Assembly: GCF_002001175.1 (NCBI RefSeq)
Contig: NZ_MUNT01000001.1
Coordinates: 310,001 to 374,000 of the forward strand
From: Rhodanobacter sp. C03
GTDB taxonomy: Bacteria > Pseudomonadota > Gammaproteobacteria > Xanthomonadales > Rhodanobacteraceae
Reading direction: 5' to 3'
Length of the DNA: 64,000 bases
Translations under genes and position numbers: made by a program
Notes under the pieces: generated by a model
The model's database searches: none
The model's input: only the letters and a program-made list of their open reading frames with translations
Told to the model about the DNA's origin: nothing
Shown: positions 8,700 to 13,101 of the stretch, piece by piece
Position numbering within the stretch: position 1 is the stretch's first letter
Layout: every line of letters begins with the position of its first letter

Positions 8700-9377
8700 G
8701 TGATCCATTTTGATCAAGTCAGCAAGCGCTACGAAGGTGGCCATGAGGCGCTCTCGCAGCTTTCGTTCGAGGTGCCGACCGGCGAGATGGCCTTCATCAC
8801 CGGTCACTCCGGTGCCGGCAAGAGCACCCTGCTCAAGCTGCTGGGTCTGATCGAGCGGCCCTCGCACGGCACGATCAGCATGGACGGCAAGAGTCTGTCG
8901 AAGATCCGCCGCAGCGGCATTCCGAAATGGCGACGGCAGCTCGGCATGGTGTTCCAGGATCACCGCCTGCTGATGGAACGCACGGTATTTGCCAACGTCG
9001 AACTGCCGCTCGTGATCGGCGGCATCGCCAAGCCCGAGCGCGCCAGACGCGTACGCGCGGCGCTGGAGAAGGTCGGCCTGCTTGCCTACGAACGCCAGCT
9101 GCCGGACACCCTGTCTGCTGGCGAGCAGCAGCGCGTCGGCATTGCCCGCGCGATCGTCGCGCGTCCGACCTTGCTGATTGCCGACGAACCGACCGGTAAC
9201 CTCGATCCGCAACTGGCGGTGGAGATCATGGGCCTGTTCGGCGAGTTTCAGCAGGTCGGCACCACCGTACTGGTCGCCAGTCACGACCTGCCGCTGATCA
9301 AACGCATGAAGAAGCGCGTGATCGTGCTCGACCATGGCCGGCTGGTTGCTGACCTGGCAGCGCAGGAGGTGCTGTGA
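8700..9377 (+). CDS. ftsE: cell division ATP-binding protein FtsE
   Basis: A 225-residue ABC ATPase that with FtsX forms the divisome complex coupling FtsZ to septal peptidoglycan hydrolysis through EnvC-type activators. It shows Walker A GHSGAGKST, the family Q-loop VFQDHRLLMER, signature LSAGEQQRVGIARA and Walker B LLIADEPTGNLDP. The start is GTG at 8700 with GGGG upstream. The stop codon overlaps the ftsX start. An EnvC homologue, the expected downstream effector, lies at 22.8-24.1 kb. Confidence 0.96.
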   Translation: MIHFDQVSKRYEGGHEALSQLSFEVPTGEMAFITGHSGAGKSTLLKLLGLIERPSHGTISMDGKSLSKIRRSGIPKWRRQLGMVFQDHRLLMERTVFANVELPLVIGGIAKPERARRVRAALEKVGLLAYERQLPDTLSAGEQQRVGIARAIVARPTLLIADEPTGNLDPQLAVEIMGLFGEFQQVGTTVLVASHDLPLIKRMKKRVIVLDHGRLVADLAAQEVL

Positions 9378-10357
9378 ACACGCCGCCCGAAGCCAGCCAC
9401 ACAACCACGCCCGATGCGCCGCCGCGCAACGAGCACACTCGCGGGCGCCGTCTCGGCAACTGGCGGGAGCATCACGGCTGGAGCGCGGCGGCCAGCCTGC
9501 GCCGGCTCGCCTCGCGTCCGCTTGGCAGCCTGCTGACGATTGCGGTGATGGGCCTGGCGCTGGCGTTGCCGCTGGCGTTTTACCTGTTGCTGGGCAATGT
9601 GCAGAAGCTCGGCGATGCGCTGGGTCAGACCCAGGCGATCAGCGTGTTCCTGCAGCCCGGTCAGAGCGAACAGCAGGCGCAACTGCTGGCCAAGCAGCTG
9701 GGCGATCGTCCCGAGGTGGCTGCGGTCACCGTGAAAACCCCGCAACAGGGCATGGATGAACTGGCCAAGATGCAGGGTTTCTCCGGTGCCCTGCAGAGCT
9801 TGGACAGCAACCCGCTGCCGTATGTGCTGCAACTGCAACCGCGCGCGGAAGTGAGTGCCGACGCGCTCGAGCAGCTGGTGACCGATGTGCGCACGATGCG
9901 CAGCGTCGAGCTGGTGCAGGACAGCGGCAGCTGGCGGCAGCGGCTGGATGCGCTGCTTGGCGTCGGCAATCGTGTCGTGCTGGTGCTGGCTTCGTTGCTG
10001 GCGCTGGCGGCCTTGCTGGTGGTCGGCAACACGGTGCGGGTGGATATCGCCAGCCGCAGCGAGGAGATCGGCGTGCTGCTGCTGGTAGGCGCCAGCAGTG
10101 CGTTCGTGCGCCGGCCGTATCTGTATGCCGGGATCTGGTATGGCCTGTTCAGCGGCATCCTCGCTGCGCTGCTGGCGGTGCTGATCGAGTTCGCGCTGGC
10201 CGGACCGGTGGCACAGTTGAGCCGGGCCTATGATGGCAAGCTGCAAGTCGGTGGTCTGCCTTTGTGGCTGTTGCTGGCGGTGCCGGTGGCGGCGGCTGCG
10301 CTGGGCTGGCTTGGTGCGCGACTGGTGAGTGCCTGGCAATTGCGCAAGCTGGGCTGA
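9374..10357 (+). CDS. ftsX: cell division permease-like protein FtsX
   Basis: A 327-residue inner-membrane partner of FtsE. A cytoplasmic N-terminal tail (about 50 residues) leads to a first membrane helix (GSLLTIAVMGLALALPLAFY), a periplasmic loop of about 120 residues that in this family contacts EnvC-type activators, and three more helices (VLVLASLLALAALLVVGNTV; IWYGLFSGILAALLAVLIEF; WLLLAVPVAAAALGWLGARL). GTG start at 9374 overlaps the ftsE stop by four bases (GTGA), indicating translational coupling. Confidence 0.95.
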   Translation: MNTPPEASHTTTPDAPPRNEHTRGRRLGNWREHHGWSAAASLRRLASRPLGSLLTIAVMGLALALPLAFYLLLGNVQKLGDALGQTQAISVFLQPGQSEQQAQLLAKQLGDRPEVAAVTVKTPQQGMDELAKMQGFSGALQSLDSNPLPYVLQLQPRAEVSADALEQLVTDVRTMRSVELVQDSGSWRQRLDALLGVGNRVVLVLASLLALAALLVVGNTVRVDIASRSEEIGVLLLVGASSAFVRRPYLYAGIWYGLFSGILAALLAVLIEFALAGPVAQLSRAYDGKLQVGGLPLWLLLAVPVAAAALGWLGARLVSAWQLRKLG

Positions 10358-10496
10358 GGGACTCTGCCGAAGGCGATGCGAATCGCAGCATCGACGTGGC
10401 GGTCAATGCATTATCTGTAGCGGAAAGCGGGCGCAGGGGGTGCGCTCGCAGGTTCATCGGCAGGGATCGCCACGAGTCGAGTGGATTAGCCAAGGA

Positions 10497-11339
10497 ATGA
10501 GTACAAATATCAGCAGTCGCCTGCTCACCGAGGCACCACGTGTGCTGGTGGTCGACGGCTCGCGCGTGGTGCGGCAGTTGATCACCCGGGTACTGCAGGC
10601 CGAGCTGCCCGGCGTCGAAGTCGTCGGTTGCGGCAGCGGCGCCGATGCACAACAGGTACTCGGCGAAGGCGTGTTCGATTTCATCACCATCGCGCTGCGC
10701 CTGCCCGACATGGACGGGCTGGAACTGGCGCGCTTCGTGCGCGAGTCTGCGCCGCAGATCTACGTGCCGATCGTGGTGGTCTCCGGCGATGTCGAGGATC
10801 GCCTGCACCGGCGCTCGCTCGGCGAGCACGTCACCGATTATTTCGACAAGGCGCTGGGTTTCCAGGCGTTGGCCGAGTTCATCCGCGGCTATGTAAGCCC
10901 GCAGACGTCCGCGGAGGGCACCGTGCTGTACGTCGAGGACAGCCGCGTGGTGGCCCTGGCGACCCGTCGCATGCTGGAGAAGATCGGACTCACCGTGCGT
11001 CATGTGGTCAGCGTGGAGGATGCGCTGGCGCTGCTGGAGACCGATCGCGTGCTGGGCTGGGTCGGCGCCGACGTGGTGTTGACCGACGTCAGCCTGAAAG
11101 GCGAGCTGACCGGTGGCGACCTGCTCGAACACATCCGTGGCGAGTTCGGTTACGGCAAGGGTCGCTTGCCGGTGCTGGTGATGACCGGCGACGAGAACCC
11201 GGCTAACCAGGCCGCGCTGATCCGCGCCGGTGCGAACGATCTGGTCGAGAAGCCGGTCGAGGAAAAACTGCTGATCACCAAGCTGCTGTTCCAACTGCGC
11301 GTGGCACGGCACCTGCGCGAGCGCGCGAGCAAGGCATGA
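10497..11339 (+). CDS. double-receiver (REC-REC) response regulator, first receiver degenerate
   Basis: A 280-residue protein of two CheY-like receivers and no output domain. REC2 (about residues 141-275) is complete: acidic pair YVEDS, phospho-acceptor D197 in VLTDVSL, switch Thr in VMTGDE and Lys in LVEKPV. REC1 (about 14-133) keeps D20 (VVDGS), S96 and K118, but the acceptor position reads [12 protein letters not shown] with Ala66 instead of Asp, so it should not be phosphorylated. The start at 10497 has AAGGA abutting the ATG, which is tight, and the frame is open upstream; the start is therefore uncertain. Its stop overlaps the ung start (ATGA), so the two are co-translated. No cognate kinase is adjacent. 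Confidence 0.85.
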
Positions 11340-12070
11340 GCGACGAGCGGCCCATGCCCGAAAAGATCCGGTTGGAGCCGTCGTGGAAGGCGCGCATCGG
11401 CGATTATCTGCAACGCCCCGAGATGCAGGCGCTGGCGACGTTCCTGCGTGCGGAGAAGCACGCCGGCAAGCGGATCTATCCGCCCGGTCCGGAAATCTTC
11501 GCCGCGTTCGAACACACCCCGTTCGACGCGGTGCGGGTGGTGATCCTCGGCCAGGACCCGTATCACGGCGCGGGCCAGGCGCATGGCCTGTGCTTCTCGG
11601 TGCGCCCTGGCGTGCGGGTGCCCCCGTCACTGGAAAACATTTTCAAGGAGATCCAGCGTGACCTCGGCATCGCGCGACCCGACCACGGTTGCCTCACGCC
11701 ATGGGCCGATCGCGGCGTGCTGCTGCTCAACAGCGTGTTGACGGTGGAGGACGGCCGCGCCGGCGCGCATCAGGGCAAAGGCTGGGAAGGTTTCACCGAT
11801 GCCGCGATCGACGCACTCAACCGCGAGCGCGAGGGTCTGGTGTTCCTGTTGTGGGGCTCCTACGCCCAGCGCAAGGGCCAGTTGATCGATGGCAGTCGCC
11901 ATTGCGTGCTGAATTCGGTACACCCGTCGCCTTTGTCAGCCCACCGCGGCTTCATCGGTTGTGGCCACTTCTCGGCTGCCAACCGTTACCTCGAATCCCG
12001 CGGCCACGCGCTGATCGACTGGTCGCTGCCGCCGCGTTCCGCATTGCAGGGCGGTTTCACGCCCGCTTGA
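11336..12070 (+). CDS. ung: uracil-DNA glycosylase, family 1
   Basis: A 244-residue base-excision repair enzyme that removes uracil from DNA. The catalytic water-activating loop [18 protein letters not shown] and the minor-groove loop [18 protein letters not shown] with the catalytic His are both intact, as is [11 protein letters not shown]. It overlaps the upstream response regulator by four bases (ATGA). A second in-frame Met ([12 protein letters not shown]) could be the start, but the overlap favours the first. The gene before rpoH is not usually ung, so the linkage is local. Confidence 0.96.
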
Positions 12071-12110
12071 ATGCTGCTGGGCGACCCTCATGTCGAGGCC
12101 ATGGGGCCGC

Positions 12111-12139
12111 TGGACAAGAGCCGTAAATATCTGTACGAT
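12111..12139 (+). promoter_or_regulatory. predicted sigma-70 promoter of rpoH
   Basis: TGGACA (12111-12116) and TACGAT (12134-12139) are separated by exactly 17 bases, matching TTGACA/TATAAT at 5 of 6 and 4 of 6 positions. Transcription would begin near 12146, leaving a leader of about 100 nucleotides that contains the CIRCE element. Confidence 0.6.
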
Positions 12140-12187
12140 ACGGTTCATTAAGTCCCCGAGCCCATCCGGGTCGAACTAATCACCGGC

Positions 12188-12214
12188 TTAGCACTCCAAC
12201 CACCCGAGTGCTAA
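12188..12214 (+). promoter_or_regulatory. CIRCE element (HrcA operator) upstream of rpoH
   Basis: TTAGCACTC, nine bases, then GAGTGCTAA: a perfect match to the CIRCE consensus TTAGCACTC-N9-GAGTGCTAA bound by the heat-shock repressor HrcA. It ends 16 bases before the AGGAGG ribosome-binding site of rpoH and lies downstream of the predicted promoter, where HrcA would act as a roadblock or block initiation. The repeat could also form a hairpin in the mRNA leader. Confidence 0.92.
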
Positions 12215-12243
12215 ACTTTGATGTCATTCAGGAGGTTCCACCC

Positions 12244-13101
<858 letters not shown>

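Follow-up and report, generated by a model that had tools for sequence, protein, structure and literature searches.

The leader of rpoH, the gene for sigma-32, in Rhodanobacter sp. C03 contains a perfect copy of CIRCE, the operator of the repressor HrcA, and it is likely that these 27 bp function as an HrcA operator in rpoH transcription and are interleaved with a sigma-E-type and an extended -10 promoter. Judging from this arrangement of sequence elements, HrcA probably gates both sigma-E- and sigma-70-driven synthesis of sigma-32. Its recurrence in many gamma- and beta-proteobacteria points to a connection in series between the HrcA and sigma-32 systems of these bacteria. The elements themselves, their fixed spacing, their conservation and the association of the operator with hrcA were observed directly, as documented below.

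The operator, the rpoH leader and hrcA in the genome

The window, i.e., the whole stretch of 64,000 nucleotides that was analysed, carries CIRCE on its + strand at 12188-12214 as TTAGCACTC-CAACCACCC-GAGTGCTAA, with 0/18 mismatches to the HrcA operator TTAGCACTC-N9-GAGTGCTAA; besides the perfect match, its assignment is based on the conservation of the arms and the association with hrcA. The operator ends 29 bases upstream of rpoH (12244-13101, + strand), the 285-aa product of which was identified as sigma-32 by its TIGR02392 score (404.7 bits, cut-off 323.1). The ribosome-binding site AGGAGG lies between the two (12230-12235, + strand), and its GGAGG core is kept in 11/11 congeners. A distal sigma-70-like promoter, P1 (TGGACA-N17-TACGAT, 12111-12139, + strand), was the sole match in a consensus scan of 12000-12300. 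The initial annotation had placed a genuine CIRCE among just such neighbours, namely sigma-70-type hexamers, a ribosome-binding site and an RpoH frame, and all of these were indeed present. At up to 3 mismatches, the window contained no second CIRCE, and 100 dinucleotide-preserving shuffles of it contained none at all, which rules out a chance occurrence; an assembly artefact is likewise ruled out by finding the same site in genomes of the family and the class.

Two further observations were made in this area. P1 overlaps an imperfect dyad, TGTAC-N6-GTACA (12132-12147; TGTACGATACGGTTCA here), which may be the operator for a second regulator of rpoH; of the 51 family leaders read, 24 carry TGTACNWT, and 7 of these have the dyad in perfect form. 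In the stretch upstream of rpoH (window 8700-12070) are found ftsE-ftsX-like genes, as in E. coli, and between these and rpoH there are a response-regulator frame (10329-11339) and ung (11336-12070).

The searches for hrcA and for other CIRCE copies that the initial annotation had proposed were carried out on the entire genome (3.86 Mb, 21 contigs), and they returned one hrcA (equivalog score 308.2 bits, cut-off 197.2), which by visual inspection stands in the order hrcA-grpE-dnaK-dnaJ, and a single further CIRCE, at groESL. The latter (C15:282094-282120) has 1 mismatch and ends 62 bases before groES; it and the rpoH site are the two copies in the whole genome at up to 3 mismatches. No CIRCE was found in the sequence read ahead of hrcA, grpE and dnaK of this genome (best 9-10 mismatches). 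The genome also encodes RpoE (TIGR02939, 321.6 bits, cut-off 236.15).

Conservation of the operator and its association with hrcA

The rpoH leaders of 11 species of the genus, i.e., the window and 10 others, were aligned, and the mean share of the commonest base was 99.5% over the 18 positions of the arms; for the loop it was 83%, for the 60 bp upstream of CIRCE 78% and for the 29 bp downstream 90%. Thus, the arms are kept while the upstream flank drifts, which is the pattern that the initial annotation had proposed to look for. At the family level, a strict pattern, in which CIRCE is tied to an RpoH coding motif, was recovered in 124/147 genomes and 23/26 genera. The leaders of 20 of the remaining 23 genomes were readable, and 18 of these had CIRCE at up to 3 mismatches, the two without it being L185 (genome G006) and L198 (G055); in the other three genomes, the rpoH frame was broken (G099) or a full rpoH was lacking (G037 and G142). 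Among the matches listed, those closest at rpoH were an unclassified proteobacterial MAG (L122, 86%) and Dyella ginsengisoli (85%). Fifty-one of the 124 strict family leaders were read individually, comprising 30 from the matches listed, 20 hand-picked ones and the window itself.

For genus g11, we considered whether the specificity of HrcA had changed concertedly at its two targets. Its rpoH sites (L186-L189 and L191-L197) have the right arm GACTGCTAA in 10/11 cases, while its groES loci (L267, L270, L272-L276 and L278-L281) read CTGGCACTC-N9-AAGTGCTAA in 11/11. Since the operators at rpoH and groES differ in their changes, a coordinated change was dropped in favor of what looks like drift in two directions.

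Sampling of the wider class, in which hrcA was detected in 277/370 genomes, yielded the strict pattern in 74/370 genomes and 60/273 genera, spanning 49 families as counted from the table; it is to be noted that the sequences behind the class and family counts are mutually related. Carriers among the matches listed include Dyella, Pseudoalteromonas, Rheinheimera, Methylocaldum, Nitrosomonas, Thiobacillus, Polynucleobacter and Aromatoleum. By matching the two tables by hand, hrcA was found in 72/74 strict matches as against 205/296 of the others (p 2e-8), and the two strict-pattern genomes without a detected hrcA were G227 and G264. The strict pattern undercounts CIRCE at rpoH, as became evident when non-strict genomes were hand-picked, one per family where possible (60/205 hrcA-positive and 30/91 hrcA-negative), and their rpoH genes located (in 55/60 and 28/30, respectively). 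CIRCE at up to 3/18 mismatches was present in 50/55 of the hrcA-positive but only 3/28 of the hrcA-negative genomes (p 3e-13), the latter count being 2/28 when a narrower search window was used on these leaders. As a control, the best site within 270 bp of rpoH coding sequence of the 55 loci had 6 mismatches. The scan found no CIRCE in 5/55 of the hrcA-positive non-strict genomes; one of these five, L351, has a CIRCE-like site, CTGGCGCTC-N8-GAGTGCTAA, near the rpoH start, with a spacer of 8 bp rather than 9, followed by AAT. Overall, the presence of CIRCE at rpoH tracks that of hrcA in the class sample. The proposal of the initial annotation that HrcA and sigma-32 would act in series is therefore supported at the sequence level by the presence of hrcA, by the preservation of the arms (99.5% versus 78% upstream) and by this association.

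Promoter signatures interleaved with the operator

For comparison of the sequences around the operator, the first base of the left arm was designated position 1, the arms and loop together making up 27 bp. Column counts were made on 139 leaders, which consisted of 110 named stretches (those with 150 bases upstream, among at least 118) and 30 of the 74 strict class loci, less one duplicate; the addition of 50 sites with up to 3 mismatches from hrcA-positive genomes gave 189 rpoH sites. The 43 groES sites consisted of 20 from the class (exact-core CIRCE, from 29 loci), 22 from the family (best matches with up to 3 mismatches) and the one of the window's own genome. In the 139 leaders, fixed bases were found outside the arms, namely GGAACTTT at -15 to -8, T-A-A at loop positions 10-12, and A29-T30 directly after the right arm. 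When viewed against the general sigma-E promoter consensus, these bases make up a sigma-E-like promoter, GGAACTT-N16-TCTAA, that overlaps CIRCE, its -10 element consisting of the end of the left arm and the loop, and the right arm forms a putative extended -10 element of the sigma-70 type, TGCTAAAAT (TGn-TAAAAT).

The counts distinguish the rpoH sites from the groES sites. GAAC starting at -16 to -12 was found in 133/189 rpoH sites and 1/43 groES sites, and when the same window was slid upstream as a control, the mean was 4.0 and the maximum 10 of 189; GAACT is concentrated at two positions, -14 with 66 sites and -15 with 21, and in the family, GAAC starting at -16 to -11 is present in 51/51 leaders read. 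[AC]29T30 occurs in 175/189 rpoH sites versus 0/43 groES sites, and T30 alone in 179/189 versus 4/20 class groES sites (4/43 groES sites overall). Within the loop, T10 was counted in 122/189 rpoH sites versus 0/20 class groES sites, and A12 in 50/51 family leaders and 142/189 sites class-wide versus 3/20 class groES sites. A12 is moreover coupled to GAAC, being present in 115/133 sites with GAAC and 27/56 without it (p 1e-7). In a set of 50 leaders, roughly one per family, T30 was found in 46, GAAC in 37, A12 in 40, and either GAAC or [AC]29T30 in 48. An extension of the operator palindrome was considered as the origin of T30 and rejected, since the mirror base is present in just 26/189 sites and operator symmetry leaves T30 unexplained.

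The window itself conforms to this layout. The candidate sigma-E-like -35 element, CGAACTA (12172-12178, + strand), assigned on the strength of GAAC in all family leaders read, has 5/7 bases of GGAACTT, the consensus and the commonest form elsewhere. About 16 bp downstream, TCCAA (12195-12199, + strand) fits TCNAA and comprises the last two left-arm bases plus loop bases; it was assigned as the -10 element from the conservation of A12 and its coupling to the -35. The likely extended -10, TGCTAAACT (TGn followed by TAAACT, thus fitting TGn-TANNNT; 12209-12217, + strand), overlaps the right arm and is backed by the [AC]29T30 counts. Several congeners read GGAACC at the -35 position, and given these and the weak -35 in the window, the general layout is surer than the use of sigma-E in Rhodanobacter sp. 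C03.

Natural variants offered a view of the individual modules. Genus g28 contains both an hrcA-positive genome (G389; L342), in which GGAACTT-N16-TCCAA surrounds a full dyad with 2 mismatches to CIRCE, and an hrcA-less one (G293; L314), in which GGAACTT-N16-TCCAA and the right arm GACTGCTAAGAT are kept and the outer left arm has decayed. TGYTANNAT was present in 15/28 hrcA-less leaders, 2 of which still have CIRCE (shuffles: mean 1.2, maximum 5), as against 4/28 for GGAACTT or GAACTTT (shuffles: mean 0.56, maximum 3); thus, persistence after loss of the operator is clearer for the extended -10 than for the sigma-E element. RpoE was compared in 19 of 24 genomes, and GAAC was found in 0/3 genomes without RpoE over the family cut-off versus 12/16 with it, which are small numbers; GAAC is absent from the leaders of 4/16 RpoE-bearing genomes, and from 56/189 rpoH sites overall. 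T30 is absent in 9/51 family leaders, eight of which belong to one genus, g24 (L006-L013, n=8). These eight have kept GAAC and CIRCE (with GAGTGCCAA) without T30, showing that the modules can part, and of the promoters running through the operator, g24 may use just the sigma-E-like one for rpoH.

Other explanations for the site were weighed against these data. HrcA might act on rpoH solely through P1; CIRCE would then be an operator within transcribed leader sequence, and the bases on either side of it would have no promoter function. P1 is the only consensus match in the region scanned, TACNAT occurs 35-110 bp before CIRCE in 35/51 family leaders (a bare count, given without a chance level), and 16/20 class groES sites do have a -35, TTGA[CT], upstream of CIRCE; however, this upstream TTGA[CT] is found in just 7/189 rpoH sites, and the fixed T30, A12 and GAAC, which are rare at groES sites, would be left without a role. 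We therefore regard this explanation as unlikely. The distal promoter named in the initial annotation is indeed present at 12111-12139, but it is not the whole story, as CIRCE also overlaps the sigma-E-like promoter and the extended -10.

Much less probable still is that the inverted repeat functions at the RNA level, as a hairpin of the rpoH mRNA that affects stability or senses temperature, and not as an operator in the DNA. The rpoH gene of E. coli is regulated by mRNA structure, which sets a precedent, and in the transcript from P1 the 9-bp stem of CIRCE is able to form. Nonetheless, this stem itself excludes the ribosome-binding site, transcripts starting at the inner promoters would lose part or all of it, and the occurrence of the site goes with that of hrcA in the class sample; folding was, moreover, only mildly stronger than in shuffles (z -1.70 for the P1 leader, with 11/200 shuffles as good, and z -1.07 for the short leader), and an RNA role was rejected. 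It is similarly improbable that the site is vestigial, or that binding to it has no consequence for regulation. CIRCE-like sites do exist without a detected hrcA (the 3/28 above, plus G227 and G264), yet CIRCE is usually absent where hrcA is absent, strict matches extend over 49 families, and the arms are far better conserved in the 11 species than the sequence upstream. A working operator interleaved with the two inner promoters is thus the reading that we prefer.

Proposed circuit and relation to known systems

As inferred from the sequence, the repressor, the promoters and the feedback loop would operate as follows. Because the operator shares bases with both inner promoters, HrcA on the site would directly block the sigma-E-type and the extended -10 promoter, and the bound repressor would be a roadblock for transcription from P1. 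In other bacteria, HrcA folding needs free GroEL, and so the occupation of GroEL by misfolded protein would free the operators of HrcA. Upon such release, groESL would be made directly, and sigma-32 would be made by housekeeping and envelope-stress polymerase. Sigma-32 would in turn drive groESL, raising GroEL, restoring HrcA and shutting rpoH. A CTTGAAA-N14-CCCAAT stretch found upstream of groES in this genome, taken together with general knowledge, points to sigma-32 as a driver of groESL here. GroE is reported to enhance HrcA binding in Campylobacter (PMC8533110), and HrcA to be kept folded by GroESL in Caulobacter (PMC8119881). For Xylella under nitrogen starvation, a four-fold rise of hrcA at 2 h with groESL down, and a two-fold rise of rpoH at 8 and 12 h, have been reported (PMC3224663; PMC11764788). 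This pattern does not fit control by HrcA alone, though it might be accounted for by further promoters.

The usual teaching presents heat-shock control as the work of one system or the other, HrcA or sigma-32, and takes E. coli as the proteobacterial model. Should HrcA control rpoH in most HrcA-bearing members of the class, the HrcA-less design of E. coli may be derived, and in the common design the supply of sigma-32 would be governed by how much GroEL is available. Such a design would also account for the way in which a sigma-E to sigma-32 cascade could be restrained when folding capacity is adequate, and the fixed overlap of the operator with two promoter signatures leads to clear single-base predictions. 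A broader proposition, on which we are evenly divided, is that in most HrcA-bearing gamma- and beta-proteobacteria about 45 bp combine a sigma-E promoter, an HrcA operator and a sigma-70 promoter, through which HrcA gates sigma-32 by chaperonin load, and that P3 of E. coli is a remnant left after the loss of hrcA and CIRCE.

A CIRCE operator at rpoH has probably been predicted before. The main comparative survey, that of Permina and Gelfand (2003), is the likeliest to list gamma- and beta-proteobacterial cases at rpoH. The initial annotation was correct in placing the operator at rpoH; far from being unusual, the arrangement is widespread and has been published for one other bacterium. The interleaved layout of CIRCE and promoters was not found in print among open-licence papers, and within that literature we rate two points as new, namely the class-wide association with hrcA and the fact that sigma-E and extended -10 elements are interleaved with the operator.

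In E. coli K-12, rpoH is preceded, 120 bp from the start codon, by GAACTT-N16-TCTGA, which we take to be P3 and the N16 spacing of which equals that of the element at CIRCE; E. coli differs in having no CIRCE in the 200 bases read, and it was not among the HrcA-positive control genomes. P3 is reported to be read by RpoE (PMC8103513). The bacterium with CIRCE upstream of rpoH in print is Geobacter sulfurreducens, in which, as in the window, the copy at rpoH is perfect, located at -51 from the translation start; it is, however, a delta-proteobacterium, and the part of that report consulted describes the operator alone (PMC545781). With the classical HrcA/CIRCE regulon (groESL and hrcA-grpE-dnaK), the present genome shares the operator, the repressor gene and groESL as a co-target. 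It departs from this regulon in that no CIRCE was found before hrcA, grpE or dnaK, that rpoH is a target, and that the operator overlaps the promoter signatures, where those of the classical regulon stand upstream of it.
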